Below are positions 1-60,729 of a stretch of DNA of 64,000 nucleotides, piece by piece (positions within the stretch are counted from its first letter, which is position 1; every line of letters starts with the position of its first letter). Location: positions 62,001-126,000 of the forward strand of contig CAMPDV010000108.1 in NCBI GenBank assembly GCA_946699065.1. Direction: 5' to 3'. The translations under genes and the position numbers were made by a program. This stretch comes from Loxodes magnus. Its lineage: Eukaryota > Ciliophora > Karyorelictea > Loxodida > Loxodidae. Under the pieces are notes generated by a model. It worked only from the letters and a program-made list of their open reading frames with translations. It made no database searches and was not told the DNA's origin.

Positions 1-190
1 ATGTTGCACCAGATTCTTAGGCATGTCCAGATTATTGGGCTATCAGCAAGATTGGCAAGTAAGGGGAATTAGCTGGCTGACTTGATGCAGAACTGGCTGA
101 GGATGATTAGCTTCCTGTAAAACTGTGCAAGGGAGTGTACTTTAAGGGAGAAATTGAGTTGATGAATAGGTTTTTAATACTAAGATATTC
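1..190 (+). pseudogene. Ski2-type helicase fragment, archaeal relic copy 1
   Basis: The window opens inside a DExH helicase. A motif III-like GLSA segment lies near base 40, followed by residues matching the end of RecA domain 1 (GELAGWLDAEL, then KGVYFKGEIE). It aligns at roughly 85% identity by eye with 39535-39720 in copy 2. As in copy 2, the helicase stops here and runs into the Mg2+ transporter-like gene, so RecA domain 2 and the C-terminal domains are absent. Archaeal origin is inferred from the neighbours (see 37545-44800). Nothing suggests it is expressed. Confidence 0.6.
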
Positions 191-1500
191 CATTTTTAGA
201 AAAGTTATAATTTACAGATGTCACTAACGTTTATATCAATTTTTGACAAGGACTTAAGGGAAATATTATCTTCCCAGATTGTCTCCATACTAGATGGTTT
301 GATTGCAAACTCGATTCTGGTTGCTTACACTCATAAGATTCTATTAATTCCTGGTATGTTTACTCTTTTCCCTGACTTTCTTTAAATGATAGGAAATATT
401 AGTGGAATACTTGCAGCACAGCTTAGCTCAGGCTTGTATTTTGAATATATTAAGCCTAACTAGATGCGCTCAAAGGTAATAAGAGAGAATTTATAGAATC
501 CTTTGCAATGGCTGTCTAATCTCATTGGTCCAAGGTATATCTACATTGCTGTTTAATCTTTGCTTTTACTCAACTTTTAGCCCAAAATTATTTTAGTGCC
601 TTTTAATACAGGGATAATTACAAGAAATTGATATTCATCTGACCCTTTTTATAACATTCTATCTTTTCCGGAAAAAGTATGACCCGAATAACATCATAGG
701 TCCGTTTGTAAGCTTAGCAGGTTATATAACAGGTTTTGCTGCATTGCTGGCAACCTTTCTACTGCTATGAAAATCTAAAAAGAACTCAAAATCCTGAGCA
801 AGATAAGAAGAAAATTTTACCATTCGCTTATTTAAAAAGGGGCATAAAAATACGGGATTTCTAAAAAACACTTCTATACATAAAGGAATATGACTCTCAT
901 ACGAAAGTGCCAAAAGCAATACCTAAGGAAAGTTTTAAGATTCTGCTTCTAGCGTCATTAATTAGTTCAAGCTGTCTTGTTATTGAGTGCATCGAGACTA
1001 CTTTTATCTCAATCATTCCCCTTATAATTATAATGTCTTCCTTAAATGAAGTAATTAGTGTTTAAGGTATGATAATATCAGCATTAATTTCAACCAAACT
1101 GTATGAGAGAAAAGTAACAAAAAAATGGTGGAAGATAAAGGAGCTTAAATAACTATTTTTGCAAGTTCTAATAACTGTCATGGTTTTGGGTATTGTTATA
1201 TCAATAGTGGCTCTGATTATCCAGTTACTCAGAGAAGTCTGCCAGAGGCATAGCAGTAAAATATAGCTCGTCATTATTTTCGATATAAGAATTTTAGTAA
1301 GCATACTCTACTAATTTCAGTATTTTCGGACCTTTATTTCTACAAAAGGCGGGAAGATTCAAATAACTTTTTAATAGCGCTTACAACTTCGATTGGTGAT
1401 TTTGGGAATGCATTATTCTTATTTTTGCTCTTTATTCTCTTTGCTGAATTTAGTAAGTATGGGATATATCATAGCAATAGAAAAAATTATATATACTCAA
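190..1500 (+). pseudogene. MgtE/SLC41-like Mg2+ transporter, archaeal relic copy 1
   Basis: Hydrophobic stretches correspond to a membrane protein of the MgtE membrane-domain (SLC41) type as found in archaea, with two related halves. Recognisable pieces are LLIPGMLILFPG followed by LEMKGN in half one (near 340-390) and a half-two motif that reads MIISALISTKL (near 1070-1110). The normal role is Mg2+ transport across the plasma membrane. The segment carries many frame changes and parallels 39725-41030, so it is a decayed gene. Confidence 0.6.
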
Positions 1501-1950
1501 ACTTTAATGTATTGCATGGAATTTACAGGAGCACAAAGAATCCAGCTAATTCGATGTAAAGTTCTTTGAGGAATAAAAAAATAATTTGAACCAAAGAAAC
1601 CTAAGTAAACTGTACAGAATGAAATTGAAAAATCAAGAAAACAAAGAAGAAAAACAATCAGGTATCCGTAAGACAGCTTGAGCAAGAGCCCATGACCATT
1701 AAAATCTTTTTCTATGTTCTTCCGGTAAAAACGAGGAATTAGTACAATATTCATATCTATTCACCTGGTGACATTACTATTCTAACTACATTCCAATCAA
1801 TGCTTGTTGTATATATTCTTGGGACAGCTAATTTTATGACGAACATAATTCATATTTTGAAGACTCTCTGCGGGTACGCTTTTGATGAAGAGCTCAAGCA
1901 TGAATTAAATCAAATTAAAATTCGCATTAAAGTAAATATGATATATGATA
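1500..1950 (+). pseudogene. Lysine-rich linker and HExxH-like remnant, archaeal relic copy 1
   Basis: A lysine/glutamine-rich stretch (about 1590-1690) is followed by a segment whose best reading gives LKHELN near 1897-1914. In copy 2 the same place reads HELNH, an HExxH-type zinc metalloprotease signature as in M48 peptidases. In copy 1 the second histidine is replaced. Identity of the gene is tentative; it is retained only as part of the duplicated block. Confidence 0.35.
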
Positions 1951-2640
1951 GATGACACGAAGCAGTAACTCATTTACGAATTTTTCATTAAGACTCATGA
2001 TAAAAGACAAGACATGGATTGTAACAGTTGACATGGGCTATATACATCAGCATGCAACCTATCCCTTTAAGGATATTTCCTATGAGAGCATTATAACAGC
2101 AAATTATGAAAAAATTATAGCACTACTGATAAAAAGGATATGATAAATAGCTTAACATTCATGCGAATGAATTTCACAGATGAAGCACATTTCCATAATA
2201 GAAAAGCCTCTGTTTTCTTTTAGGGAAATCTTCCAGACAATAAACACTATATACCCATTCAAAGATCTATCCAAATAAAATTTTGCATCGCTCTATATAG
2301 CCAAATTAATTAACAAGGAAGGTAATATCCAAATCGCAAAAAGGAGAATATTCCTTTTATAATGACTATCTAATTCCATCCTTTGCTGCCACTTTTTGTG
2401 GGCTGAAAAAGGTTTATTATGTGGTTACTAACTCTTATATTAACAGGGTGTTGGTTGCAAAAGAACCCAAATTAAGTAATGTAATCTATCTTACTCCAAG
2501 CGACCATACAATAAAAAGATTGCAGGAGTATGGTTCCTGAAAAGAATATTTTCCTTACATGATTTTCTTTGCACAGGAAAATGTTGTTATCATTAAAAAG
2601 GAAATTTAAAACAAGAAACTAAGGAAAGGCTACAATTTTT
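1950..2640 (+). pseudogene. GT-B-like glycosyltransferase remnant, archaeal relic copy 1
   Basis: Residues VTVDMGYIHQHATYPFKDIS occur near 2020-2080, followed by a segment reading YITKLI-like and SDRTIKRLQEYG near 2500-2535. The same string of motifs occurs in copy 2 at 41549-42200. The DMGYxHQ start recalls GT-B enzymes that begin with a Gly/His-rich loop. Copy 1 breaks off near 2640 and jumps directly to sequence that in copy 2 lies about 1 kb further on, so the C-terminal half and the mscL relic are missing here. Confidence 0.45.
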
Positions 2641-2669
2641 GGATTTATAAAGCATCTTGGTTTCGAATC

Positions 2670-3200
2670 TAATATAATGAGAGGATTGTGGATAATCCCT
2701 TGTATCTGCTTTTGAAATATCAATTCCAAGATTCTTTGTCTACTTAAGCAATCTGTCTCTTATTTGCTCAACTGTTCTCTGTGTTTGAGGACCTCCATCT
2801 CAATAAAATAGTCGAGCTCATTAACAATAACAAGACTGATTTCAAATTCATCCTGAAAGGTAAAAATCTCAGTTATTTTTCAACAATAACCAATTCTCTT
2901 AGATTTAGTGCAGATAAAATTTTATCTGTCTGTTCTGGTTTTTCTACAGCAGTCTCATATTTGTTGCAATGAGTTGCTTTATTGTTATCTAAGGATAATA
3001 ATGCTTATAATTAAGAAGGTATTTTTCTCCTCTTTTGCTTATACTTAACCACTAACAGGGAAACTGTGACTAAACAAATTTTGATGTTGGAGTAAAATAG
3101 GTATATGTTTGGGATGATTTCTTGACAAATCTTCCTATTTTCTGCCATTTTTCCCAAAGTAAGAAAAAAGTTTTTCTAAGCAGGTAATTTTATCTCTATT
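2670..3200 (-). pseudogene. CYTH-domain (class IV adenylate cyclase-like) remnant, archaeal relic copy 1
   Basis: Read on the minus strand, 3000-2690 gives EQTDKILSALNLRELVIVEK, then FTFQDEFEISLVIVNELDYF and IEMEVLKHRE. The order of a variable strand, a K/R-ending strand, an acidic DEFE strand and an EIE-like strand is that of CYTH/CyaB proteins. The family binds triphosphates inside a beta tunnel. Several frame changes are present. It pairs with 43190-43770 in copy 2. Confidence 0.5.
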
Positions 3201-3439
3201 TCGCATTTCTACGGAGCATTTGCAGAATAAATGAGAAATAGTATAAAAATTTTCTGGGCAATAGAAGAGTAACAAGCAAAAACCTAACAGCATTACAGTT
3301 CAGTAACCTTTTGGCCTTTCTCACCTTGACCAAAGAGATTGCCACTCACCCTTATACCTCCCATTTTCTTTTTATTTTACTCTACTTTTTTTGCATCTGC
3401 TTAAATTCAATCTAAGCTTTCTATTCATTCATGTTTTTA

Positions 3440-34490: not shown

Positions 34491-35692
34491 ATGAAAGTAC
34501 TTTAGAAACTTAATTAAGAACTGAGAAAATTTAAGATTGCTAAAATTGTAAGTGGAAAGCATCTTTTCGTGAGGACTTTGAAAAAAAAGGTATCTTAATT
34601 TATAGGAATCTCTATGGTGAAATGATTACAAAAAAGTTAACTAAACAAAGGAAAAAATCTCTATTGAATATTCTTGAAGTTGAAATAGGATGAATTCTAT
34701 TCTAGAATATCCTAACCATAATTATAAATTTTGACTAACTACTTGAAATGTCTTAATAGAGTTCAGTTAGGAAATGTTGTCTTAGTTTTTAATGTGGATT
34801 ATATCAATAAAACTGTTTCTTTTGAAGATTATGAAGATTATGACTTCATCTATAAGAAAAAGTAAGTCCCAAGCTCAGTTTTTTTAAATAACCTCAACTC
34901 AAGTAACGTAAAACTTAGGGTTAGCCAAAGTTCTGAGCATTTAAAAAGACGAAGAGGTAGCATGCTGAGCATTTTCAGAACTGAAGAACAATTTGAACGA
35001 AACTAAGCGAAGTTGGGAAGATCAAAGGTTAAATATTTGAGCATATGAATCTTTTTAGATATGACAAAGTATTTTTGAGAAAAGTCAAGTTGTCCTTATT
35101 TATAGACCGGGAATTAATTATTTTTGCTCGTGGGCAAATTGAAATAATACTATTAGTTTAATTTTTCCTAGAAAACTCCCTCCACGAGCAACAGAGAGTG
35201 AGAACTGAAGTTTTCAGAGGGAAAAGTTCAAAAACTGTAGGCTGAGAAAATATAACAAAGGAAAAAATTGTATTATTCAAAAGAAAGTTTGACAGCTATG
35301 TATTTGTTGTCAATGCATTTACAGTCCATTCTTTCACAATGAAATCTGTAGGCTTTTTATATTTATAATTTTTATTTATTCAGTCTGTAGAACATGCCAA
35401 CTTACAGCCAAAATCTATTTTACAGGATATATCTCAATAGGAAATATCTGAATTTTTAGAGTATCCGATTAGTTCAAAATTTGAAAGTAATATCAATAAC
35501 AGGATTAATAAAAAGATCTTTCTTTTCATAACATATATTGAATATAGGTTGTATAAATAGCTTTCATTATACTTTCTTTCAAGTAGAATTAAACCTAATC
35601 GATGTTAACTAATCTCCAAGTACTTGAGGAGGCGAAAAGCTTATGATGAGTAGAATCATAGTTCGATTCGCCACGATTCAATATGCTTTTGA
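34491..35692 (+). CDS. Uncharacterised protein with probable short intron
   Basis: Starts MKVLQKLNQELRKFKIAKI at the ATG at 34491. Removing a 26-base GTAAGT...GAG segment joins this to DFEKKGILIYRNLYGEMITK in frame. A further shift near 34690 leads to DEFYSRISQPQLQILTNYLK and VVLVFNVDYINKTVSFEDYE. The C-terminal part (35330-35690) is in one frame: ISEFLEYPISSKFESNINN, then ISKYLRRRKAYDEQ and a TGA at 35690. Purine-rich strand. No known family. It ends tail-to-tail with the VOC gene, about 84 bp from that gene's TAA. Confidence 0.6.
34548..34573 (+). other. Candidate 26-nt spliceosomal intron
   Basis: Begins GTAAGT and ends AG. Its excision restores the frame between two coding-like exons in phase 0. 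Very short introns are known in ciliates (15 nt in Stentor). Inferred, not proven. Confidence 0.4.
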
Positions 35693-35775
35693 AGTTGAGA
35701 ATTTATCAAATATAAAATACAAAATATTATACTAGAAAATATAGTTTATTAGGCTAGTTTAGAGAGAGGATTATC

Positions 35776-36168
35776 TTATTTCAGCTGAAGCAAATCCCAT
35801 AAATTACCATATAAGTCTTCAAAGACTGCAACTGTTCCGTAGGATTCTTCTTTTGGTTCTCTAACAAATTTAACTCCTTTAGAAATCATATCATTGTAGT
35901 CTCTCCAAAAGTCATCGCTATTAAGAAATAGAAATACTCTACCACCAGATTGATTACCAATAAAAGATTCCTGTTCAGGTTTTGATGCTCTTGCAAGTAA
36001 TAAAGATGCTCCATTTGAACCAGGAGGAGAAACAACTACCCATCGTTTGTCTTGTTAAGGTTGATATGTATCTTCAACTAAAGTGAAATTTAGTTTCTTA
36101 GTATAGAAGTCAATAGCTTCATCGTAATCTCTTACAATCAAAGCAATATGGACTATTGATTGCTTCAT
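35776..36168 (-). CDS. VOC-family (glyoxalase/bleomycin-resistance-like) protein, bacterial type
   Basis: The ATG at 36168 gives MKQSIVHIALIVRDYDEAID, then KRWVVVSPPGSNGASLLLAR, GGRVFLFLNSDDFWRDYND and EDLYGNLWDLLQLK. This is a full-length single-domain VOC protein of about 130 residues, closely resembling bacterial members. The fold is two beta-alpha-beta3 modules; likely metal-binding residues are His7, Glu in the FEDLYG segment and an internal acidic residue. The frame is unbroken except for one internal TAA at residue 37 (YQPxQDKR), which reads Gln in this code. A TAA sits exactly where bacterial relatives stop. If TAA is always Gln the protein would extend to a TGA at 35656. Confidence 0.9.
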
Positions 36169-36354: not shown

Positions 36355-37540
36355 ATGACAGAAACACAACCTTCGGAAAATCTCTCGGAAAGAATACTGA
36401 CTTTAAGTACTTAGGCATAAATCAGAGTAATCAGTAATTTTTCTTATCTGATTACAGAAATCTAGATCCAAATGTGAAGTACTCTGCAGTATTTAATGAT
36501 TTATTAAAGACATTTCCTGAATTTTCTCCTTCAAAAGTAATTTTAATTAGTCAAATGAGAAAAAGATGAAATAGGAAATTATTTTATTGCTTCTGAACCT
36601 GATTTTGAAAAAAATTTCTTGGATATCTTAAACAAAAAGGCATCCCTGAAACAAACATTATTAAAATAGATGTAGATTTATTTTAAGCTAGCCACTTTCT
36701 CTATTGTATATTCGAGGCTATGTTCTCCAAAAGGAATGGGCGAATATATGAAATATATGAGCGAAGATTATGACGAAGAAATTTTTCTTTAAAACGAATT
36801 CTTTTTCAAATAAATTCTTGCACTGGCATTAATGGAGCTAATCACGTTCCCCAACGAAGTGGAGGATCGTGGTAAGCGGAATAAAACTTTTGATTTTTCC
36901 CTCAAAAATCATTCAGCTGCCAATGAGTGAGAAATTTCCTATTATTAATGCTAGCAATAGAAAAAAATCAGAGTAATATTAAACACAACGATGTTATACG
37001 CTTTTTTCCTTGCGAGTTCTTACCAAAAGCATTAGTTTTTGAGTGCTGAAATGGACCGAGATGGAAAAGTTCGAAAAAAAGAAACGTCCTAAGAAATTTA
37101 CGATGCATGAGACCTTTTATTTAAGCAATCTAAGTTTTGATGTTTCCATGAGTACCTCCCTCACAATTAATAAGCTAATTTCAACAGGTACGGCGATATC
37201 TTAATTTCCTAAGAATACTAAAATTGCAGTACTTAAACAAAATATAATTTGCTTATGAATCCGATTAAGCTAAAAGTTTCCTATTCATAATAAGTACAAT
37301 AGATTAGTGATATTTTAATACTTTCGCGAGAAAAACTCTTAGTAATAATTGAATATCACAGAATATAATGAGAAAAAGAGGATTCTTATACTGTAATGCC
37401 TATAAAATGACAAATCTATGACATGCTCACGTAGATATTTAAACTAGTTTTGTTTTGATAACAGTAAAATTTGATTTTTCTGAATTAATACGAAAAGAGG
37501 CTCTCAGAAGAGGATGAGGATTAAGCATACGGACAATCAC
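36355..37540 (+). CDS. Uncharacterised protein, several frame changes
   Basis: The ATG at 36355 begins MTETQPSENLSERILTLSTQ. Downstream pieces: NLDPNVKYSAVFNDLLKTFP, EKDEIGNYFIASEPDFEKNF, ETNIIKIDVDLFQASHFLYC, SAEMDRDGKVRKKETSQEIY and MNPIKLKVSYSQQVQQISDI. Shifts coincide with A5 runs (near 36554 and 36638), suggesting indels rather than ancient decay. It is divergently placed from the VOC gene, with about 190 bp between starts. The coding-like sequence runs up to the left edge of the archaeal block near 37540. No domain recognised. Confidence 0.5.
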
Positions 37541-37544
37541 AATC

Positions 37545-38270
37545 TATCTTAATGTACAAATCCAAAAGATCCTGTTGAAATTAATATGACAGACATAAAG
37601 GATTTCTTGATAGATTAGTCGAAAGGAACCTCCCGGAGAAATACATTCAATGTGCATATGAGCAGCCTTAAATTTTCTATTAAGATATTACATAAAAGGC
37701 TTATGCTCAGGATATGTTATTCAAAGAGGCTAAAGAAACTTCCGAAATTTTAGCAAAGGATGAAATAAAGGCCTTGTTTAATGCTATTGATAATCCAAAG
37801 CATAAGTTTATTGTGAAACATCTATTCAGTAGGATTTAGAAAAAGGGAGTTTGTCTAAGCTAAAAAAGGATAGTCTTGAGCTCAAGCAAGAATTTAAATG
37901 GAAATCTAAAGGTATATGGAACAAGGAAACATTGTTTGCCATTGCAGACAGCCTGAAGGATGAGGTAAAGGAGCATAAGAGGAATAGTAATACCTCATGG
38001 CTTTTCTCGAGGAAAACTGGGTATCTTACTGACCTGAATATGTAGCAGATTATACGAGCAGCTGTCTTAAGTGCTGTTATTGAAAGAATGTACATCCCCA
38101 CACCTTAAATCATACCTCTGCAACGCATCTTACTAGAATAGCTATGATATAGCTCTGTTCAATTCTTACTAAACCATTCATCCAGACAACCATGATGTAT
38201 GTGCACATGGCTTCGCCCAAAATGATCTTTGCTCAAAAGTCCCTTAGACAGTTTACCATGATAATAAGCA
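37545..38270 (+). pseudogene. xerA: XerA-type tyrosine recombinase relic
   Basis: An N-terminal core-binding part reads CTNPKDPVEINMTDIKDFL and NTFNVHMSSLKF. The catalytic part follows: LAKDEIKALFNAIDNPKHK, KLKKDSLELK, WLFSRKTGYLT, then HPHTLNHTSATHL, where functional enzymes have HxLRH, and TTMMYVHMASPKM, where they have a Tyr nucleophile. In archaea XerA resolves chromosome dimers. The box II Arg is replaced by Asn and frames change several times, so it is inactive. First recognised base is near 37545, immediately after host coding-like sequence. Confidence 0.75.
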
Positions 38271-39010
38271 GCTATATTTTCTAGGAGCGGATAAACTCTG
38301 TGCCTGAAAAATTAAAATGGAAGCAGGGTATATCAAGCTGGGATGATTTTATTAAAAGGGATAAGGTAAAGGGTTTGCCAAAAAACCAGTTAAAGTTAAT
38401 ATGACAGAAAGCTTTTGGAAATATTACCTCTATATTCTAAACTCAGACTATTTTGATGACAAGCTTCATATGGTTAAAACAAGGAGGATGTATGAATTAT
38501 TCAGGAATAAGGTTGTTTTCCTTGACATAGAAGCAACAGGTATCCATAAGTATGATGAGTTTACTGTCATTGACTTATGTGACAGGATTTATGCAAAGAC
38601 AATGATAAAAGAAAATGTTAATCTTGTTGCATTAAAGCACGAATTAAGCAAATATAGCCTTATAATTATTTTAATGGAGCATCTATTGACATACCTTTCA
38701 TAAAAAATAGATGTTCTGACTTACTGCAAAAAATCCCGCTCTTTGTTGTAAAGACAGCATGCAGGAGAATAGGATTGTTTTGCCGTCTAAAAGAAATTGA
38801 AAAGCAGCTTGGTATATAACGAAATAAGGTAATAGAAAATTTCTAAGGTGATGATTCTGTGTGCTTATAGAGAATGTATCGGGCAACAGGCGATGAGTAT
38901 TATGTAAAGCTGTTTGTCGAATACAATGAAGAGGATACTGTTAATCTCAAAAGAATTGCTGAACTTACAGTAGATAGGGTATAAGAAGCAATGACACATA
39001 CCTAGAAAGA
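38270..39010 (+). pseudogene. YprB-like RNase H-fold exonuclease relic
   Basis: 38400-38703 is still open in the standard code: LFRNKVVFLDIEATGIHKYD has the DxE motif of DEDD exonucleases. It is followed in other frames by a CRRIGLF segment, LKEIEKQLGI, and EYNEEDTVNLKRIAEL, which carries the final Asp. This order is that of YprB-type RNase H-like domains. It may have been a separate gene or the N-terminal part of a nuclease-helicase with the next feature. Confidence 0.7.
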
Positions 39011-39720
39011 ATTTTATTAAATTCAAAATATCTTCCTTTTTTTAAGCTTGAGTAGATTAAGGAAAGCATTCCAAAATAACTTTATGAAATGCTTGAAAAA
39101 GAAAAGATTTAGGAGCTAAGGCCAGCACAAATAGAGATAATGAAAGCAAGATTATCGGAAGAATAACATCTCAATGTGTGCATGTCAACTGCATCCAAAA
39201 AAAACTGATATAAGAGATTAAATCTCTTACATCTCTGATTCAAGGAAAAGGAAAGGCCATTCGCATTGTCCCATTAAAGACACTTGCCTCTAAAAATTAC
39301 AAAGAAATCAAGATAAAATTTGAGTATTTTGCCAGAATCGCTCTTTCTATTGGTGATATTGATGAATCTGAGCCTATCTTGCAACTATGACTTAGTCGTA
39401 GCCACAAGTAAAAAGATGGATTCATTTTTAGGCATCATGCGTCCTGGATTCAAAAAATTTAAGTAAGTATCATTGATGAAATCCATCTTTTCAAAGATTC
39501 AGGAAGAGACTCAACAATTGAGATCTTCATAGCAATGCTGCACCAGATTCTAAAGTATATCCAGAATATTGGGCTATCTGCAACTATTGCAAACCAGGGG
39601 AATTAGCTGGCTGACTTGATATAGAATTGGCTGAGGATATCTGCGTCCTGTAAAACTGAAAAAGGGAGTGTACTTTAAGGAAGAAATAAAGTTTTATAAA
39701 TAGATTTTTACTACTAAGAT
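39010..39720 (+). pseudogene. Ski2/Hel308-type helicase relic, truncated
   Basis: Motifs in order: Q-motif-like LRPAQIEIMKA (39118), a P-loop area CMSTASKK where SGKT is expected (39180), RIVPLKTLASKNYKE (motif Ia, 39263), VSIIDEIHLFKDSGRDST with the DEIH box (39465), and GLSATIANQG (motif III, 39570). The gene ends near 39720, before RecA domain 2, and runs into the transporter. The same junction occurs in copy 1, so the truncation is older than the duplication. Confidence 0.75.
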
Positions 39721-39724
39721 ACTC

Positions 39725-41030
39725 TACTTTTAGAAAAGCTTATAATTTGCAGATGTCATTAACGTTTTATGTCGATTTTGATAAGGACTTAAGGAAAATA
39801 TTATCTTCCCAGTTTATCTACTCTAGGAGCTTGTCAATTCGATTCTAGTTGCTTACTCTTAAAAGATTCTATTAATTCCTGGTTTGCTTATTCTTTTCCC
39901 TGGCTTTCTTGAAATGAAGGGAAATAGTAGAAGAACATTTGCAACACTGCTTAGCTCAGGCTTTTATCCTGGATATATTAAGTCTAGCCAGAGACACTTA
40001 AAGATAATAAGAGGGAATTTAACAGCTTCCTTTGCATTGGCTGTCTATATCTCATTGGTCCTAGGTATAATTGCATTTCTGTTTAATCTTTTGATTTTTC
40101 ACTAGCTTTTTGTCAAAAATATTTTAGTACCTTTTTTACAGGGATAATTGATATTCCTCTAATCCTTTTGAAACATTCTATCTTTTTCCGGAAAAAGCAA
40201 GAGCAAAATAACATAATAGGTCCGTTTGTAAGCTCAACAGGCTATAAAGCAAACGTTGTTGCACTGATGGCAACCTTACTACTGCTATGAAAATCTAAAA
40301 TGAACTAAAAATCCTGAAAAAGATAAGAAGAAAGTTTCACTATCCGATTATTCAAAAGGAGCATACAAAGTATGGGATTTCTAAAAAACACTTCTATACA
40401 TAAAGGAATATTACCCTCATACAAACGTGTCAAAATCAATACCTAAGGAAAGTTTTAAGATTCTGCTCCTGGCGTCATTGATTAGCTCATCTAGCGGTAT
40501 TATTATTGAGTACATCAAGACTGTTTTTATCTCAATCATTTCCCTTATAATTATGCTCCCTACCTTAAATGAAGTGATAAGCGATTAAGGTATGATAATA
40601 TCAGCAATAATTTCAACCAAACTGTATGAAGGAAAAGTAACAAAAAAATGGTGGAAGATAAAGGAGCTCAAGCAACTGTTTTTGCAGGTTCTAATAATTG
40701 CCATAGTTTTGGGTATTGTTATATCAACAGAGACTCTGCTTGCCTCAGCCATGCAGGAATATTCTTTCCAGAGTCACAGCAGTAAAAATATTTCTCATCA
40801 CTATTTTTGATATGAATTTTAGAGAGCATACTCTTCTAATTTCACTATTGTCAGGCCTGTATTTCTACAAAAGGCAGGAAGATCCAAATAACTTTTTAAT
40901 AACCCTTACAACTTCGATTGCTGATTTTGGGATACATTCCTCATGTCCTTACTCGTTATTCTCTTTTTCTGAAATCAGTAAACATGGGATATACTATAGC
41001 AATAGAAAAAGCTGTTTATGCTCCAAATTT
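39725..41030 (+). pseudogene. MgtE/SLC41-like Mg2+ transporter relic
   Basis: Half one reads LREILSSQ, LILFPGFLEMKGNSRRTF, SGFYPGYIKSSQRHLKIIRG and FALAVYISLVLGIIAFLFNL. Half two reads ESFKILLLASLISS, MIISAIISTKLYEGKVTKKW and VLIIAIVLGIVIST. The two-half arrangement with GN near the end of the first conserved helix matches the archaeal MgtE-like family. Several frame breaks. It corresponds to 190-1500 in copy 1. Confidence 0.65.
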
Positions 41031-41485
41031 TTAATGTTTCGCACAAAATTTACAGAAGCACAAGAATCCAGCTAATTTGATGCAAAGGTCTTTGAGGAAC
41101 ATAAGGAATTGTTTGAACCGAAGGAACCAAAACAGACTGTACAGGATAAGTTTGAAAAATCCAGAAAAAAAGAGAAGAAAAACAATAAGCAATCCGTAAG
41201 ACAGCCTGAGAAAGTTCCTATGCGAGTTAAAGCCTATTGCTATGTTCTTCCGGTGAAACAAGGAATCAGTACTATTATTATATCTATCACATAGTGGCAT
41301 TAACATGATAAGAGTATCCCAATCAATGCTTGGCGTACTTGTCCTTGGCACAGCTAATTTTAAGACTAATAAGATTCATATTTTGAATACTCTCTATGGA
41401 TGCGCTTTTAATGAAGTGCTCAAGCATGAATTAAATCATACTAAATATTCGCATAAAAGTGAATATGATGTACGATAGATGACAA
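41030..41485 (+). pseudogene. Relic with lysine-rich linker and HELNH motif
   Basis: A basic stretch (EKSRKKEKKNNKQ near 41155) precedes VLVLGTANFKTNKIHILNTL (41335) and EVLKHELNHTKYSHKS (41415). HELNH fits HExxH of zinc metallopeptidases such as M48; the family assignment is tentative because the third ligand and membrane segments are not identified. Confidence 0.4.
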
Positions 41486-41489
41486 TAAG

Positions 41490-42770
41490 ACAGCTAACTC
41501 ATTTACTAATTTTTCATTAACTCATATGATAAAAGACGAAGTTTTGGTTGTAACAATTGACATGGGCTATAATCATCAGCATGCAACTTTCCCTTGAAGG
41601 ATATTTTCTATGTAACAGCAAATTATGACAAACCCATAACACTACAGGAAAAAGGGATATGGTAAATAGGTCAACGTTCATATGAATGGATTTCACAGAT
41701 GAGGCACGTTCCCAAATCAGGAAAACCTATGTTTTCTTTTAGGAAAATGTTCCAGACAATAAACCCTATATACCCATTCCGAGAACTATCCAAATCAAAT
41801 TTTGCATCGGCCTATATAACCAAATTAATTAACAAGGAAAGTGACATTCAATTTGCAAAAAAGGAGAATATTCCATTATAACGATCTATCTCAATCCAGT
41901 ATAGGCTGCCTCTTTTTATGGGCTGAAAAAGGTTTATTGTGTGGTTACTTACTCTTATATTATCAGGGCGTTGGTTGCAAAGGAACCAAAATTAAGCAAT
42001 ATCATCTATCTCACTCCAAGCTACCGTACTATAAAAAGATTGATTGAGTATGATTCCTGAAAAGAATGTTTTCATGACATGATTTTCTTTGCCCAAAGAA
42101 AGCGTTGGTATCACTAAAATGAAGATTTTAAAACAAGACATTAGGAAAAGGCTGCAAAATCTTGATCCAATAAGACTACATTTATCTAAGTATGTGGATT
42201 TATATGCAAGCAAACTGGAGATTTAAAGCACTAATCAAATCATATGTTAGCATTAACCTTTATGGTTAGTTGAGAAGATGCTCAAAAATAGATTGACACT
42301 GGTTTTTTAACAAGCTTTAAGAATAAATTGCTCAGAAATAAGATTAAAATAGATATTGAGACAGGAACAAGGCTAGATAGTTAATTATATCAAGGACAAG
42401 ATCATTGAGCTAGGCAAGAATGTTTTTATAGTGCTTGCACTTGATAAAAGAATTATTTTTTGAAAAATTTAACAGCTATTTGCATACAACTGACATTTTA
42501 TAGATCAAGCAAAGAGAATTAAGCTTTTATGTTGTGCTTGGAATTCTAAAAATAATTACTCCTCCTCTCGGAACACATGAAAATTTAGCAAAGAGTTGCT
42601 TGTGCATAGAGATTGTGGCTTTGCCCATTAAAATTCATTGTATACGGATGAATCGACTAGTTACTGGAGAGATAGCGGAAGGTTTACAGAGGCAATTATG
42701 GATAGATTTAAGAAAATACCATGCTTAGAAACCTATAATATTGAAAGGATTGCGCTGAAGAATAGGACAT
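41490..42770 (+). pseudogene. GT-B-like glycosyltransferase relic
   Basis: Start VVTIDMGYNHQHATFP (41548); middle FRELSKSNFASAYITKLINK (41790), then YLTPS and RTIKRL (42010-42040). The C-terminal half has NYIKDKIIELGKNVFIVLAL (42390), LHTTDIL, then VLGILKIITPPLGTHENLAK (42530) and a segment corresponding to CGFAP and W-rich YTDE. The donor-site-like pattern (Ser/Glu-L-x-F-Y then ALGIPxIxAPPxGxHE) is typical of GT-B enzymes. Substrate unknown. Many frame breaks. Confidence 0.5.
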
Positions 42771-42866
42771 AATCTCTAGTTGATGAATTAGCGGTTCCTA
42801 ATGCAGTAACCCATATATTTATATTCTTCTACTTTTTGTATTTATAATGCGAGGGATGAATTGTAT

Positions 42867-43170
42867 GGGCTATATGACTGAATTTAAGGAATTCTTAAAG
42901 AAATACAAAGTAGTTGGTTTAGCTATTACCTTTATAATGGACGTTACAGCAGCAGCATTGATTGATTCAGTCATTTATTATTAATATCGTCATTCTCTTA
43001 TTACTCCGTTTATTCCAGAAGGAGCATGGCAAACAGTTACTCTGAAAATTGTGTCTATTTTCCTTAGTTGGTGTTCATTTTTAGCAGCAATTATAAATTT
43101 TAGAGATAGCATAGGTTGTGCCTATTGTTGCTAAAATGGTCCTGAAGGAAGACAAGGTAATTAAGATGTA
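42867..43170 (+). pseudogene. mscL: Large-conductance mechanosensitive channel MscL relic
   Basis: One frame still reads MGYMTEFKEFLKKYKVVGLA, ITFIMDVTAAALIDSVI, LITPFIPEGAWQTVTL and SWCSFLAAIINF. TM1 and TM2 and the periplasmic loop are in the right order for MscL. The end (43130) is readable in another frame as IVAKMVLKEDKVIKM. MscL releases solutes on hypo-osmotic shock. At least two breaks; absent from copy 1 because of the 1-kb deletion. Confidence 0.8.
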
Positions 43171-43189
43171 TTTATTTTTGATTGGGTGA

Positions 43190-43770
43190 TAAAATATCGC
43201 CGTAGCAACCCCTTCTTTTCATTAAGAGGAATGGATAACCCCTTTTTATTTGCTTTTGAAATATCAAATTTCAAAATTTTTTGCCAATTTAAACAATCTT
43301 CTTCTTATTTCATCAACTATTCCTCAGTATTTGAAGGCCTCTATCTCAATGAGATAGCCAAGTTCATTAACAGTATAAAGATTGATTTCAAATTCATCCT
43401 AATAGGTAAAAAAATTATCGTTTTTTTTCAATAGCAACCATTCTCTTAGATTTAGTGCAGAGAAAATTTTGTCTATTTGTTCTGATTTTTCTACGACAAC
43501 CTCGTATTCGTCGCAATCAGTTGCTTTATTGTATTCTCAGGATAATAATGCAAGAATGCATTTTTCTCCTTTTCTGCTTATGCTTAACCACTCATAGAGA
43601 AACAACTGATAAACAAAATTCCGATATTTGGTGTAAAATAGATATTTGTTTGGGATGATCTTTTGATAAATCTTCTTATTTTATGCAATTTTTTTCGCAA
43701 AGTAAGAAACAGGTTCTTCTTAGCAAGTATTTTTATTTCGATTTCTATATCTCATAGAGATGAGCCATTT
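43190..43770 (-). pseudogene. CYTH-domain (class IV adenylate cyclase-like) relic
   Basis: The minus strand reads TNIYFTPNIGILFISC near 43660, NLREWLLLKKNDNFFTYQDE near 43440, and EINLYTVNELGYLIEIEAF near 43370. These are the barrel strands of CyaB/CYTH proteins, including the EIE pair. Related proteins make cAMP or hydrolyse triphosphates. Several breaks. It corresponds to 2670-3200. Confidence 0.6.
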
Positions 43771-43879
43771 ACATAATAAATAGTGATAGTATAAAATTTT
43801 CTGGGAAACTAATTAAGTAGCAAACTTAAACCCAGCAGCAGTACAGCTTAGCAACTTTTGGTTTTTCTCACCTTACCAT

Positions 43880-44800
43880 AAAGATTTCCGTGCTCTCTTA
43901 TATTTTTATTTTCTTCTTACTTAACTCTGTTTCAATCTTATTTTTAACTAGATCAACCCTTCTCTTCTTGTATTCAATTTCAACCTGTGCGGGGCGCTCC
44001 TCTTTACAGATACTGCACACCATAAAATTGCGCAATGATTCTTCTACAATTTCTTTTTTGAACAGAATGGCTTATTCTTGGTGGGATTCTGTCTCATTGA
44101 GCATATTACGGTATATTGTGTAGACAGCCTTGCAGAATCCACATAATGAGCCTTACTCAAACTTATTAATAGTTTCTCCCTTTTATGAATAATACTTGGA
44201 TCATAATATGCTTTTAGTATCTTAATCTTTTCTTTAAATTTTTCATCCAGTACTTTTCCTTTCGAAGTCAGTATCGTAATTCTTCATTATTCTGCGCCTT
44301 AAATTTCTTGAGAAGTTTGCACAATTCCTCTCTCTTTTTTTATTCTTATGGCTTGAATAAAGGATGAACAATCCCAATGCTAATATGGCCATAAGCTTGT
44401 ATCTTTTTGTTAATGCTTCTAGGATAGGAAATCAGCCATATCTGAGAATTTTTGGTTCTTAATAATGTTGTAGCGAAGAGAAGTAAGTGATGGATAAATG
44501 TTTTCCAGCAGAAGCTTCAATCTATCAATCTCCTCTTTTGCTATAATTTAATCATAAAATGAATCAAACTTTTCAAAAAGTATATTGATATCTCCCTTGC
44601 TCATAAGGTTTAGAGCTATTATCAGTAATTTCAAACAAACAGATATTCCTTTTTAGCAACATCTCTAATTTTTAGAATAAGCTCCTGCTTAAATATAGAG
44701 AAAAAGTGGTGTAATCATTTTGACCAGCGGATTAGCTTTAGAAATGCTCACACAATTACGACTGAAATCCCCTTTCTTTAAACAAAATTATTACTCAATT
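43880..44800 (-). pseudogene. Cys-rich prokaryotic-looking relic
   Basis: Minus-strand pieces: SKGDINILFEKFDSFYDQII and DRLKLLLENIYPSLTSLRYN near 44600-44500, REELCKLLKKFKAQNNEELR near 44330, CGFCKAVYTIYRNMLNETES near 44130, then MVCSICKEERPAQVEIEYKK near 44025. Two CxxC pairs suggest a zinc ribbon. Possibly two genes. I do not recognise the family. Copy 1 does not extend this far. Confidence 0.4.
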
Positions 44801-45166
44801 TTTTTTTGTTATTAGTACCTCAATAAAGTCAACTATTTCAGTTTTCTATCTCAGTGCAATCTATTACCATATTTTATGGATATTTAGCTAGCTGTATTGT
44901 AACAATCATGCATAAAATCTGGCAGAGATAACGAGAACTTGGATCAAAAGGAAAAAAGAGTCCATTTTTTCAAAATATTATCTCAAGTCATCAATAACAA
45001 TCAAACGCTAAACCTAAAGTTTCGTTTTTCTTTATCAATCGTAAGATCTTTACTTATGCGTAAAAAAGCAAGCACTACTGACTAATATGGGATAAAAGAT
45101 CAGGAATGGATATTATTACCTCCTCTTGTTGATTTAATAAAATAAAGCAATTTAAAAGATTAAAAT
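44800..45166. other. Right margin of archaeal block, unassigned
   Basis: Somewhat higher GC than host gaps; no gene recognised. The boundary with host DNA probably lies here or at the tRNA relic. Confidence 0.35.
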
Positions 45167-45239
45167 GCGCTATTCGAGACCAGAACCCGAGTCAACTGCT
45201 TAGAAGGAGTTATTCTAACCACTAGACTTATACTCCCTC
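45167..45239 (-). pseudogene. tRNA-Arg(TCT)-like relic
   Basis: The minus strand shows AGTCTAGTGGTTAGAAT (D arm), ACTCCTTCTAAGCAGT (anticodon stem-loop, anticodon TCT, one base short on the 5' stem strand), and a T arm TCGGG-TTCTGGT-CTCGA that still pairs. The acceptor strands GAGGGAG and ATAGCGC no longer match. Decayed. It lies at the outer edge of the archaeal block and could be archaeal in origin, or a host copy. Confidence 0.5.
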
Positions 45240-53889: not shown

Positions 53890-56240
53890 CTTGAATTAGT
53901 CTCTTATTTTTCTCCTCCTCCATCTATACTCCATTGAATTCACATTCATGTATTATCAATCCACTCCTTCCGATCATTCTCTAGAGTATAAAATTTGATA
54001 AGTTATTAGTTGCTTTTGCTTTTTTTCTTAAATTTTTATCGTCTTATCCTCAATCCTAATATTATATATTTGTTGTCACTTGTAATCACCACAGTTAAAA
54101 CAAACCAAGTATGACTCTATAGTTTCTTTAATAGATTTCCTGTCTCCATATCTCAGATTTTGATTGTTTAATCATTACTTCCTGATACGATATACTTATT
54201 ATCACTTGTTAATGCCAAAGATGTAACAATATCAGTATGACCTTATAAGGTCTTAAGTAAATTAGTTGATTCTATATCTCAAATTTTTATTATTTTATCT
54301 TAACTTCCTGATACGATATACTCATTATCACTCGTTATTGCCACAGTTAAAACAAACCAAGTATGACCTTATATACTTTCTGATATTACATATTTGTTAT
54401 CGCTTGCTATTGCTACCGATGAAACAGATTAATTATAATCTTCTAATGTCTTTAGTGATTCCCTGTCTACATTTCTTAAACTTTTACTGTTTCATCACGA
54501 CTTCCTGATATTATATATTTGTTATCATCCGTTACCATCACTGAGAGAACTCCTGAAATATGACCTTTTAAGGTTTAAAGTAGATTTCCTGTTTCCATAT
54601 CTCAAATTTTAATTTTTTATCTTCATTTCCTGAAATAATGTGCTTGTTATCACTTGTTATTGCCACTGATAAAATAGATGCAGTATGACCTACTAACGTT
54701 GGCATTTAGCCAAACTTAACTTAACTCATGTTTGCATTATTGAAATTGCAATTCCTTAATCATGATCTACTGAAATTCACTCTATTCAGATTAGCATTCA
54801 TCAAATCACAACTATCAAATACTAAATCACTCAAATCTGCTTCAGAAACTTAAATATCCGAAAGATTCTTCTAACTAAACTAATAATTCATCCAATTCAA
54901 TAATGTTATACAGTTGGTTGCTGCTTTTTATAAGCTTTTATTTAACTTTGTCTGCTTTACTATCTCCAACAGATTTAGCTAGAATTCACTTGAACTATTA
55001 ATCTTCCTCACAAACTATTAGATCTCCTTATTGTCTACTATGGTGAACTTATTTATACAGTGATTCTCTATTGTGTTTCTATTCTTTTCTAGATTAAGCT
55101 CTAAATTTACTATATCCCTCGCCACATAGTAATCACTTATAGACGCTTGAATAAACTCAAACCTCTTTGTTTTATTCTATCCAAGCATCCTATGTGGTTG
55201 GAACTTTAAGTTATTTGCTAAATTCATTCTTAACTAGTTTAATCCATACTCTCTAACTCCAACTGATTCTTTAGCAATTAGTATGCTGCACTTTTTTATA
55301 ATCCTGGAAAAGTTCTCTTTACTATTTGATTTTTATACTGTCGTAATCAATATTCTCTAACTTTTCCTAAGTCTTTTCATTCCACTTATTTATAAAGATT
55401 TCATATATCTTTGCCTTTTATACTTTTAAGTTAGTGCTACTCTATAAATACTTCATTATTTCTTCTTCACTCATGCATATATAAAGCAAAAAAGGGTTAT
55501 TTAAAATCTCCATCAGTCCTAGAATGATTTATATCAAGTTAATTACTTCTCTTACCTTTTCTTTCTCTTGGTTTAGTTATCAATTTCAGTTCTACTGTCT
55601 ACCTTATTTCTCAACAACTAGCCTTATGTATTATTCTATTAACTTTTGATCAAAAGGCTTTATATATAACTCTTCCAGCTCTTATATACAAGCTCTTTCG
55701 CTTCTGTAAGGAGAAAAGAAATTTTTATAATTTCCATCTGTTAAGGCATAGTTGACTCTACATGTGATTATATACTTTGCATAAGGATATTTAAGGTTCA
55801 TTTTGCTACTATTGAAGATAGCTTTATACTATCCCAGCTCATCGTATGCATCAAATAGAAACAATATCTACCTATACTGTAATAGCTCTTTAAGGCAGAT
55901 TTTATTAGGTTACCCTAAAACTGTTTTATAGCTGGAAGAAACACGTAAATGGGTAAAAATTAATGCTTTTACTTCAGATACTTTAATGCTAAAGTCTTTA
56001 TAAATAAAGATTTTACTGAACCTGAATCTCCCAGTAGTAATAGTCTTGTTTTGCTTTAATTATCTAAAAATTTCTAAATTTCATCTTAAAGATCATTATA
56101 GGTCTAGGAACTGGGATTAGGAGCACATAGCAAACTAACGTAATATTCTTACTTCTCCCCAATTTCCTCTTTCAAAAACCTTATCATATCTAAATAGATT
56201 TCACTGCTAATTCCTTTAAGTGCCAGTTAATTCTCTTCTA
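53890..56240 (-). CDS. NLR-like STAND protein C (NACHT, pentapeptide-like, WD40), fused downstream of gene D
   Basis: Domains read from 56240 down: linker FLKEEIGEKQEYYVSLLCAP; Walker A GDSGSVKS (56025), with Val where Gly is usual before Lys; Walker B LFLFDAYDELGQYKA (55860); IITCRVNYALTDGNYK (55780); helical C-terminal NACHT part; pentapeptide-like ADLSDLVFDSCDLMNANLN (54830); about five WD40 units with TGA at the Trp in most; tail RMIGRSGLIIHECEFNGVQ then KRLIQDKYISL (53960). It has no own N-terminal helical region: the sequence continues straight from the WD40 array of gene D. Frame changes occur at A/T runs. Confidence 0.75.
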
Positions 56241-56244
56241 GATC

Positions 56245-59200
56245 TTAATTTTTGATTCAACTTCTGATATTATATTCTTATTATCACTTGATATTACTAC
56301 TGAGTAAACTCAAAAATTATTACCATTTAATTTCTTAAATAGATTCCCTGTCTATATATCTCAGACTTTTATTGTATTATCTTAGCTTCCTGATATTATA
56401 TACTTGCTATCTTTTGTAATCGCAACTGATGTTACAAAATCATTATGCTCTTCTAGAGTTTTATATGTCTTTTCTGTATCCATTGTTCAGATTTTTATTG
56501 TTTTGTCTCCACTTCCTGATATTATATATTAGTTAAAACTATTGATGTAACAATTTAGTGTGTTCTCTTAATGTAATAAGTGTATTTCCTGTCTTACTAT
56601 CTCAAATTTTTATTGAATTGTCCAAACTTCCTGATATTATGTACTTATTATCATTCGTTACTACAACTGAGTAATAGACTTAGTATGACCTTCTAACATC
56701 TTATTAAGATCACCTGTTATTATATCTCAGACCTTTACTATTTTATCATGATTTCCTGATACTATTTACTTATTATCCTTCGTTATCATTACTGAATTTG
56801 CATAACCAGCATGACCATCTTTTGTTTTAATCAGATTACCTGTCTTCATATCTCAGATTTAAATTGTTTTTTCTTCACTTCCAGAAACTATAAATCTGCT
56901 ACACTTGTTACTGCCACTGAAACAATAGCATTAATATGACCTTCTTGAGGTTTAGCTAGAATATCTATCTCCAAATCTCAAATTTTTATTGTTTTATCAA
57001 AACTTCCTGAAACTATAAATTTATTATAATTTGTTATCGCTACTGATGTAACTAAATCAGTTCGACTTTTTAATGTGTTAAGAAGATTTCCTGTCTAAAA
57101 GTCTCAAATTATTATTGTATTATCTTTACTTCCAGATACTTTATTCTTGTCATCATTTGTTATTGCGACCGAAACTACAGCATCAGAATGACTATTTAGA
57201 TTTTTAATTAGATTTCCTGTCTATAAATCTCAGACTTTTATTGTTTTATCATAGCTTCCTGATACTATATATTTGTTATCTTTTGTAATCGTAACTGATG
57301 TTACATAATCATTATGTCCTTCTAACGTTGACATTTATCCAAAATTAACTTAACTCATTTTCGCATCTATGAATTTGCAATTTCTAAATCAGCCTCTACT
57401 GAAATTCACTTTAGTTAGATTTGAGTTATTCAAATCTGCCATATTAACTTGAATATTCGATAGATCCTATTATATAAACTGATAATCCATTTAATTCAAT
57501 ATTGTTATGAAGTAAGTATCAGCCATTTTCAAATTCTTATGCTTTTTTGTCAATTTCACTATCTCCAAAAGATTTTGCTTCATTATCTCAGAATTGTTAT
57601 TCTCTTTGACAAACTATTAGACCTCCTTATTGTCGACTATATAAAACTTATTTATAATTGTGATTATCTAAAATGCTTAAATCCTATTCGAAATGCTTTT
57701 CTGAAATCACTATATCCTTCGCCACATAGTAATCTCTTATGGAATCATGACTAAACTCTAACTTCTTCTTTTAATTATCCTCTTTTATCTGAATCAAACA
57801 TCTGATATGATTTTAACTTTCAAAAATCTGCAAAATTCTATTTCCGTTAATTTACGAAATTTCTTCTCAATTTATCTTGCCAGTTAATATCTACCATGAT
57901 TTTTTTATTTACACCTCTTCAAACAATTTCTAATTTTATTCTTTTTCCTCCTTTTCGCCTCTATATCCTTCTAGATAATATAAAATTCTTTCCTTTCATA
58001 GATTTATATAAACTAAGTTGCTTCTGATTTAGTTATTTACTTATAACTTCTACCATTTAAGTGTTCTACGATTGCTTGCTCCTTTAGACAGATATTTAGT
58101 AAAAATGGATTAGTTAATATTTCTACTAACCCTGGAATCTTTTTTGATAAAAGCCACTATTTCTCCAACTGATTTCCATTTTATTCTCCACTCACTTTAG
58201 TTCTATTTTCGTACTTAGCTTTATTCTTAATTCTACTACTTTAGCACTCGTTAAACGTGTTCTTCTATATGATTGATATTAAAGGGTTTAACGAATAGCA
58301 CTTCTAACTCTTTATTCTATGCTTCTTCATTTTTATAAGGTGAAAAATACTCCTTATAGTTTTGAGCTTGTAAAGCATACTTTATTCTACATGCTATTAT
58401 ATACTTTGAAGAAGAAAACTGCTACTTTTACTTGCTGACTTCATTTATTTTTTATACTGTCCTAGTTCATCGTAAGCATCGAATAAGAAAAACATTTTCT
58501 TATTGCTTATCTATTCCTAAAATCAATGTTCTAGCTAATTAACACCTATTTCACAAAATTATCCTCAATGGCTTTAACTGAAGGAAGAGATATATATACT
58601 GGTAAATATTCATGCTTCGTAGTTAAGTAATCTAAAGTTAGTTCCTTCACGAATAAAGACTTTCCTCCTCCTGAATTTCCAAGTAGTAATAGACCTGGTT
58701 TTGCTAATCATCTAAAAAGTCCTGAATTTCAACCTCTAGGTCTCTCTATTCTGCTGAAATCTCTTTAAATGCACAAAATAAACTGACATAGCATTCTTTT
58801 TTCCTCCTATCTCCTCTTTTAAGCCATCAATCACTTTTTAATAATTCTCAGCTTTAATCCTCTTAATCTCAAGCCAATTTTAGTTTATTTTCTGCTTAAA
58901 AAAAGCTAAATTTTCTGGCTTTGCTATCAATGCTACTATTACTTGTTGTTCTTTCGTTTTTTAAGCTTTGTTGTTTGCCTTATTCCTGAAAATATTTTTT
59001 GTAACTATAGCAGCTTCATTGATACTTTTATTATTTAGCTTCATTAAGCATTTTAAAGCTTAATACTGTATTCTTCAATCTTTATCTTCATATAATTATT
59101 CTAAGAATTTGCATGAATTTTGCTTCAGTTCAATACTAGCTTTAGTGCTTTTAAATATGCTTTAAAGTAAAAGCAAGCTCTAAATCTGATTTTCTATTCT

Positions 59201-60402
59201 TCTTTAACAACAACCTCTTAAAATTTCGAGAACTCTTAAGAAAGATTCGTCTTACATAGATCTAAAGCTAGTGTTTCGTAACAACAGATCTTTAAGTTCA
59301 TTCTTGTATGAATTATTTCGTAGGTTTTATCTTCTCCCTTTTAGAAAAAGTTCTTTATAACGGTTATCATTTCAGTATCTTTAGTTCATATTCCAAATTA
59401 TTAAATGACTACCCATTATGCGATTTTAATAATTTTCATAAGCATATCAAAGTATTCAGGCTCTTCTTAACTTGGTAAGTTCTCTAAAATCATCAAACTA
59501 CGATTAAGAGCAAATTCTAGTTCTGGTCCTCCTAGATCTTCTTCATTTACCAAGCTAAGAATAGCTTTGATTTTCAGACTAAGATCCTTTTTAGTTTAGT
59601 TACTAATATTCTTCTTTTCCTCCTCCTTTTTAACAGTAGAATATCCAGTAGTTCTAGTAGATTTCTAACTAGGTATCCTTTTAAAAGCTAAGATCATTTT
59701 TGGTTATTTTATTCGATAAGATGTCATTAATCGATTACATAGCTACAAAGGATCATTAGTATTAGCGAATCGATTTTATTGTAGTATTTAGATACCTTAC
59801 AGTACTTTTTCGTTTCGATCTTCATTTAAACCCTCTTTCATAAGTCTTAATTCATCATAGTAAATCCTTTACTCCGAAATTGATGGTATTTGCAAGCTTA
59901 CTCTAGATTATTGGTTTAATCAATGCTCATCAGCCCCTTTTTAGTTTTTCTTCTTTTTGATTGTACTTGAGTGTATTTTAACTGGAAGTTCCACAACCTC
60001 CTCCTTTTAAGCCCTAACTAATTTTGAATCGTTATTTCGATTACTTGTATTTTATTTCCCTTTTTTCTATCGAAGGCAGAGAATATTTAAGCAAATTTCG
60101 TATTCTCAATCGATTTATTTAGTGTACCACACCAAACTCCTTTTACTATTGAAGTTAGATTTCATCTTTTTCGTGAACTAAGCAAAAAGAGTACTAATTC
60201 GAATCTGCTGAGATGTGGTTCTCAGTTTTTTCGATTGATTCTTTCCCATTTCGAATTTTTTTAGATGAAGGATTCTTTTTGAAGGTTAATAGTGCTCCTA
60301 GTATTCTAAGAAAGACATCTGTAAGAGATTAAAAAGAAGAGCATCTCTATCACTTAAATTGGTCATAAGCTTTGTATATTTTTTTAAACTCTCAGTCGTC
60401 AT
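56245..60402 (-). CDS. NLR-like STAND ATPase D (helical N-terminus, NACHT, pentapeptide-like, nine WD40)
   Basis: The ATG at 60402 starts MTTESLKKYTKLMTNLSDRD. The motif GLKGGGCGTS (60020) matches gene B. An armadillo-like region GGPELEFALNRSLMILENLP (59530) follows, then linker LKEEIGGKKECYVSLFCAF, Walker A GNSGGGKS (58680), Walker B FFLFDAYDELGQYKK (58480), pentapeptide-like repeats (57430-57330) and nine WD40 units to 56245. The Trp of the WD/WT dipeptide is TGA in nearly all nine (TIKIWD, TIKVWD, SIKIWD). Several frame changes, mostly at homopolymers. Likely a cytosolic ligand-triggered switch protein; ligand unknown. Confidence 0.8.
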
Positions 60403-60729
60403 TTTATTATCCCTCGAATGCTTTCAATCAACCTTCATGAAGAAAATGGCAATTTCAAACTTAAAAGCCAAAAAAAGTGAAAATGGAAAATAGAATTTGT
60501 AACCCCCGAAACCGCCAATTTTTTTTCAACTTCTTGTATCATTTTCAGTTGCTTTAAAGCACAGCTCATTTGCTCTCTTTTCTTGGTTTATTGACAGAAT
60601 CAAGCATTTTAGTATCCTTTATCCATTAGCTAGCTTCACTAACTGAACTAGTCTAATCTTATCACCTAAAACTTAACTATTTTTTCCTTCTCTCCTTAGT
60701 ATTTTTAAGTCTCTAGTATAGCTATTTTA

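Follow-up and report, generated by a model that had tools for sequence, protein, structure and literature searches.

A decayed and duplicated gene block, very probably from a Woesearchaeota-group archaeon, in what appears to be protist nuclear DNA

Nine gene remains at 37.46 to 43.79 kb

The window analyzed here is a stretch of 64,000 nucleotides from contig CAMPDV010000108.1, and the subject of this report is a block of prokaryotic-type gene remains at positions 37464 to 43788 of that window. Nine genes follow each other in the order xerA, RNase_H_2, helicase, mgtE1, mgtE2, X, GT-B, mscL, and CYTH, the first eight on the plus strand and CYTH on the minus strand. Intact relatives from Woesearchaeota-group genomes were aligned to the window with a custom frameshift-aware program, and the identities given are read through stops and frameshifts. 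By "Woesearchaeota-group" we mean genomes from the phylum of genome G001 or the order of genome G112, both of which have named Woesearchaeota loci. Each of the nine remains aligned with an intact gene of this group over most of its length, at 34 to 56% identity. The features of this copy, designated copy 1, are as follows.

37464..38255, plus strand: xerA (tyrosine recombinase) pseudogene; 51% identity over residues 11-285 of a 291-amino-acid relative (L174); 11 frameshifts, 1 stop; Phage_integrase, 4.7e-18
38258..38981, plus strand: RNase_H_2/YprB-like nuclease pseudogene; 52% identity over residues 6-250 of a 257-amino-acid relative (L131); 3 frameshifts, 4 stops; PF13482, 2.4e-16
39047..39697, plus strand: one-domain Hel308/Ski2-like helicase pseudogene; 52% identity over residues 3-221 of a 221-amino-acid relative (L114); 5 frameshifts, 7 stops
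39839..40287, plus strand: mgtE1 (first mgtE) pseudogene; 34% identity over residues 31-186 of 187 (L169)
40439..40931, plus strand: mgtE2 (second mgtE) pseudogene; 37% identity over residues 21-186 of 199 (L167)
41079..41475, plus strand: gene X, a small pseudogene with an HELNH-like motif; 35% identity over residues 38-172 of a 186-amino-acid open reading frame (L226); 2 frameshifts
41547..42751, plus strand: GT-B-like (DUF6937/DUF6938) pseudogene; 46% identity over residues 53-467 of 480 (L114); 7 frameshifts, 8 stops
42844..43165, plus strand: archaeal-type mscL pseudogene; 56% identity to an open reading frame (L171); MscL in Pfam, 5.7e-7
43208..43788, minus strand: CYTH pseudogene; 47% identity over residues 4-199 of 202 (L233); 8 frameshifts, 2 stops
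43789..45200, no strand assigned: G+C-rich tail of copy 1; G+C (guanine plus cytosine) fraction 0.30-0.33, dropping to 0.22 at 45.2 kb; no clear Pfam match

An earlier note on this DNA had named seven of these genes (xerA, a YprB-like nuclease, a helicase, MgtE, GT-B, mscL, and CYTH), and all seven are present in the order it gave, although its single MgtE-like transporter proved to be two genes and its CYTH gene lies on the minus strand. It had drawn the block from 37545 to 44800. Gene remains do lie there, but they span 37464 to 43788, and the DNA from 43.8 to 45.2 kb carries no assigned gene while staying G+C rich to about 45.2 kb. Gene X (41.08 to 41.48 kb) and a second copy of the block at 1 to 3383 go beyond that note.

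Pfam searches of the three plus frames of 37.0 to 45.4 kb gave RNase_H_2 (2.4e-16), DEAD (2.5e-8), MgtE (5.1e-7), and MscL (0.0054), and the minus frames of the same stretch gave one weak match. Alignment scores against the relatives were 198 to 675 for eight genes and 144 for gene X. Shuffled DNA scored 24 to 48 for xerA, the RNase, mgtE1, mgtE2, and mscL (five shuffles each) and 27 to 32 for CYTH (five shuffles, on the copy 2 stretch); these controls cover the six genes named and not the helicase, GT-B, or X. The stitched window CYTH gave an E value of 0.07 in Pfam from copy 1 and no match from copy 2, and the relative closest to it is unmistakably CYTH (9.7e-20). The GT-B protein of the window has no Pfam match of its own, its family name (DUF6937/DUF6938) being taken from the relative. 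For gene X, neither the window stretch nor a 126-amino-acid piece of the relative matched a Pfam family.

The second copy and the course of decay

The left end of the window holds a second copy of part of the block, in two pieces.

1..2644, plus strand: copy 2, first part; 81.7% identical to 39535-42166; contains the helicase end, mgtE1 (245-764), mgtE2 (919-1415), X (1474-1934), and the 5' half of GT-B (2009-2606)
2680..3383, no strand assigned: copy 2, second part; 77.4% identical to 43225-43928; contains a CYTH pseudogene (2689-3252, minus strand)

Copy 2 is cut at its left end by the window edge and is without 1.06 kb that copy 1 has, namely, the 3' half of GT-B and mscL. The copies have the same orientation, with matching sites 39.5 kb apart, and no additional copy was found in the remainder of the 64-kb window.

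The earlier note had called the block decayed, and both the stops and frameshifts in the frameshift-aware alignments and the absence of codon-position bias between the copies bear this out. Seven genes of copy 1 together hold 56 stops and frameshifts, to which CYTH adds 10 and X adds 2. In the main part of the copies, 478 of 2,623 compared sites differ (Jukes-Cantor distance, 0.21), and divergence at codon positions 1, 2, and 3 is.173,.179, and.159, respectively (565 sites each; chi-square p 0.67). Gaps between the copies number 31, of which 29 are not multiples of 3. In the shared parts of four genes, copy 1 has 15 lesions and copy 2 has 22, and six are common to both: three stops at the identical codon and three frameshifts within two residues of each other. 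Some lesions are thus shared and others private, and the three codon positions have diverged to the same extent; therefore decay began before the duplication and continued afterwards in both copies without selection. The block is now without a protein-coding role. By the lesion counts, which are small numbers, the duplication would have come about one-third of the way from arrival to the present. Two copies with shared and private lesions amount to a neutral clock.

The edges of the two copies have some features of their own. G+C-rich tails adjoin both of them (43789-45200 and 3384-4400); the tails do not align with each other, have no clear Pfam family, and are possibly further archaeal DNA that differs between the copies. 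To the left of copy 1, 36400-37200 has raised G+C and a minus-strand frame of 139 codons that is open if TGA is a sense codon, and its origin, block or host, is ambiguous. Outside the block, Pfam coverage of the window consisted of selected stretches, of which 43.9-48.9, 30.8-35.7, 36.2-37.5 (plus strand), and 3.2-4.7 kb gave matches below cutoff or none.

Origin of the block

Relatives of all nine gene remains were found in Woesearchaeota-group genomes. The helicase is the gene most widely compared, and it agrees with the proposal of the earlier note that the donor was archaeal and DPANN-like. A scan of the genome_contigs collection gave at least 73 helicase loci; among the matches listed, the best seven comprise six loci named as Woesearchaeota and one from Hadesarchaea, and loci L047 to L073 are all bacterial, with 23 to 28% identity. 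Within the phylum of G001, 222 of 371 genomes matched at an E value of 1e-25 or better, with identity up to 52%. In the helicase tree, the window row falls within a 36-row clade that contains all six named Woesearchaeota rows and has a support of 96 in the Shimodaira-Hasegawa-like approximate likelihood ratio test (SH-aLRT). The exact position within the tree is unsure, because this is a quick tree and the window branch is long. Against the PDB, the window helicase scored 5.6e-34 with the archaeal Hel308 2zj2, versus 2.5e-14 with the best eukaryotic helicase. A helicase protein scan of the viral_contigs collection gave 16 pattern matches, with no relative among them.

The one-domain form of this helicase was an open frame of 221 to 255 amino acids in all 30 loci listed, and the window helicase stops where the short Woesearchaeota form stops (residues 3-221 of 221 aligned). 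Because the two ends coincide, the shortness of the window gene is best read as a trait of the donor, with no need for a deletion. Both the short, one-domain Hel308-like helicase and the two-gene MgtE are found repeatedly across Woesearchaeota-group loci (L082-L110, L208-L225, and others).

For the other genes, the frequency of relatives in the group varied with the gene and with the threshold. RNase relatives occurred in 137 of 352 genomes of one order at 1e-30; among 352 genomes, GT-B relatives were found in 27 at 1e-15 (with the L114 relative as the query), MgtE relatives in 19 at 1e-10, and CYTH relatives in 16 at 1e-8. Smaller samples gave Xer relatives in 23 of 30 genomes at 1e-8, MscL relatives in 3 of 25 at 0.001, and gene X relatives in 3 of 32 at 0.001 (E values of 3.7e-13 to 1.5e-12). 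A xer tree built from Woesearchaeota-group rows placed the window row inside a six-row clade with a support of 99. The RNase and GT-B trees, likewise from group rows, have long window rows and did not resolve their placement. In the PDB, the window mscL matched only 4y7k (8e-28) and 4y7j (1e-27), both presumably Methanosarcina MscL. The G+C fraction of the block is.33, that of the host flanks.25 and.27, and that of five relative loci.38 to.45.

Outside the group, 72,556 plasmid records were searched with the RNase, xer, mscL, GT-B, and mgtE2. Compared with the relatives within the group, the plasmid matches were weaker or absent, in favor of a donor from the group. Among the matches listed, only those of the RNase are archaeal: all 10 are haloarchaeal, at about 30% identity (best, 31%). 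The other matches numbered at least 5000 for xer (the five listed at 34%) and six Lactobacillus and Limosilactobacillus records for mscL (best 35%, E value of 2e-3), and GT-B and mgtE2 had zero matches among these records. A phage search with an RNase fragment gave four weak matches only.

Several observations weigh against an origin in one chromosome segment of a Woesearchaeota-group archaeon. Of the nine genes, only the helicase was searched across prokaryotes, mgtE1, CYTH, and X having been compared with Woesearchaeota-group genomes only. Two loci labeled as bacterial metagenome-assembled genomes (L019 and L034) match the window helicase at 35 to 36% among the matches listed, and some Woesearchaeota-group genomes have a 700-amino-acid helicase in place of the short form. 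In the PDB, the best match of the window Xer is an integron integrase from bacteria (6.6e-19), with XerA second (1.2e-15). In the helicase, RNase, and GT-B trees, the window sequences sit on long branches, which quick trees handle poorly; the nearest genome also differs from gene to gene. The gene-order search in archaeal genomes that the earlier note had proposed came out negative: it covered 174 Woesearchaeota-group loci (0.89 Mb, some overlapping, many with just 1.5-kb flanks), and the order of the block occurs in none of these mostly short-flanked loci. One of the 174 has two different block genes, a helicase and a GT-B gene about 5.6 kb apart on opposite strands. The mgtE1-mgtE2 pair is present in 8 of the 174 at the threshold used and is adjacent in these archaeal relatives as it is in the block. 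Because no compared locus has the block order, we only infer a contiguous transfer, and a single donor segment is suggested by the close packing of the genes and their shared ancestry.

Separate arrivals are the first alternative. It is improbable that several single-gene archaeal transfers ended up adjacent to each other: the lack of the block order in any compared locus and the change of best genome between genes would fit, but nine close-packed genes all have relatives in one archaeal group, the order is the same in both copies where both are present, and the mgtE pair is adjacent just as in archaeal relatives. Carriage by a virus or mobile element that brought in archaeal genes and spreads the block as a repeat seems equally improbable. 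Such an element could account for two copies in the same orientation within 40 kb and for the position of a tyrosine recombinase gene at the edge of copy 1. However, that recombinase is itself broken, archaea ordinarily have XerA on their chromosome, and the scanned frames of the block and its immediate surroundings (at 36.2-37.0 kb, the plus strand only) showed no clear viral or transposon family. We regard as very improbable an assembly chimera or contamination, with host DNA fused to a contig from a living DPANN archaeon. A living genome would have intact genes, in contrast to the 56 lesions in seven genes of copy 1, and the two diverged copies have lesions in common and differ without codon-position bias. 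Least credible of all is that faulty reads or a faulty consensus created the lesions in what is really a genuine archaeal or host-expressed segment. Although 26 of the 31 gaps between the copies are just 1 or 2 bases long, random errors cannot give equal divergence at the codon positions and matching lesions 39.5 kb apart; in addition, a WD40 frame runs for 634 codons without a standard stop, and a VOC gene has no frameshift.

We therefore consider it very likely that a piece of at least 6.3 kb of a Woesearchaeota-group (DPANN) chromosome entered the nucleus of a stop-recoding protist, decayed, was duplicated, and decayed further neutrally. The recipient was most likely a karyorelict-type ciliate. 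The DNA was probably taken up from a prey or symbiont cell and inserted by end joining, as for nuclear copies of mitochondrial DNA. Its genes would have been dead on arrival or soon after, because they would lack host promoters and the host would translate archaeal stop codons as sense. Stops and frameshifts then accumulated up to the duplication, after which both copies kept decaying without selection, as their lesions record. A bolder extension, which we think doubtful but worth stating, is that the host lineage once housed DPANN archaea intracellularly and that their broken DNA forms a dispersed repeat family in the ciliate germline, a fossil of the symbiosis.

Nuclear copies of mitochondrial and plastid DNA (numts and nupts) are non-functional, decay without selection, and can be duplicated after insertion. 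The block resembles them in being prokaryote-derived DNA that is non-functional, neutrally decaying, and duplicated and that probably lies in a nuclear genome, and differs in that its donor would be a free or symbiotic DPANN archaeon and not an organelle. Nuclear inserts from bacterial symbionts, such as those of Wolbachia and a gene cluster in a karyorelict ciliate, likewise place prokaryotic DNA in a nuclear genome; unlike them, the block is archaeal, old, broken, and duplicated. Inserts from organelles and from bacterial symbionts are a known kind of nuclear DNA. Woesearchaeota are known almost solely from environmental genomes, and we know of no identified partners for them. A dead Woesearchaeota-group segment inside the nucleus of a protist gives physical evidence of past contact and offers a testable host candidate. 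It would also show that pieces of archaeal chromosome, beyond single useful genes, can reach a eukaryotic germline. Methanogens live inside anaerobic ciliates, Karyorelictea included, and are called the only known intracellular archaea in PMC12662959; unlike those endosymbionts, the donor of the block is a DPANN archaeon known from its DNA alone. A literature search of titles and abstract openings found no description of DPANN DNA in a protist nucleus, and the word "archaea" is absent from the main text of PMC11441545.

Flanking host genes and the genetic code

Genes with in-frame TAA or TAG flank the block on both sides within the assembled molecule.

35656..36168, minus strand: VOC/glyoxalase gene, bacterial type, left flank; PF00903, 1.1e-23; no frameshift, in-frame TAA
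21459..26161, minus strand: NACHT plus WD40 array, host, left flank, one gene or two; NACHT, 1.9e-11, with TAA/TAG read as Gln; 126-bp tandem array
53986..57937, minus strand: WD40/pentapeptide host genes, right flank; in-frame TGA at Trp positions

The earlier note had placed recoded genes on both sides. This holds for TAA and TAG, whereas TGA at Trp positions was seen in the genes of the right flank only. Of 17 aligned cells with TGA in the WD40 repeats at 53.7 to 64 kb, 13 have Trp on the opposite side. The NACHT domain at 24 to 26 kb scored 44.5 bits with TAA/TAG as Gln versus 37.5 with Glu, and the flank TAA/TAG codons are probably Gln, as in karyorelict ciliates. Glu has points in its favor: in the WD40 cells, TAG faces Glu in six of six and TAA faces Glu in 6 of 15 (with a reference unit that has no Gln at all), and VOC and some WD40 profiles show no difference or a slight gain with Glu. 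We rank Glu lower because the NACHT domain favors Gln.

Reading UGA as Trp and UAA/UAG as Gln is genetic code table 27. PMC4967479 gives this code for Condylostoma magnum and a karyorelict, and PMC6394959 suggests it for the syndinean Amoebophrya. In our judgment, the host is likely a ciliate of the karyorelict or Condylostoma type. For Loxodes magnus, PMC11441545 gives assemblies of 848 and 706 Mb that are repeat rich and a coding G+C of 33.5%.

The VOC gene shares 80% identity with VOC genes on plasmids of Paraclostridium and Photobacterium, and a TAA stands in it where four compared bacterial genes encode Glu. It looks like a separate bacterial import beside the block. Unlike the dead archaeal block, it was probably kept and recoded by the host and may be functional.

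An Rfam scan of the window gave nothing at the gathering threshold. Read with the standard code, the window contains four open reading frames of at least 100 amino acids, the longest being a 608-amino-acid frame of the WD40 array and the others 100 to 119 amino acids long. That array, at 21462-23941, consists of about 20 near-identical 126-bp units (96% matches) and encodes WD40 repeats with TGG for Trp, and 634 of its codons run without an in-frame stop; a search for its pattern in viral_contigs found nothing. In this it contrasts with the diverged WD40 genes at 54 to 58 kb, where TGA is Trp. Related and partly duplicated WD40/pentapeptide genes extend over 53986-64000 on the minus strand, with Pfam matches at 54 to 58 kb; the DNA at 61.6 to 64 kb is similar to those genes but has no Pfam match. 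The WD40/pentapeptide genes at 54 to 64 kb perhaps form one family with the NACHT-WD40 region at 21 to 26 kb.

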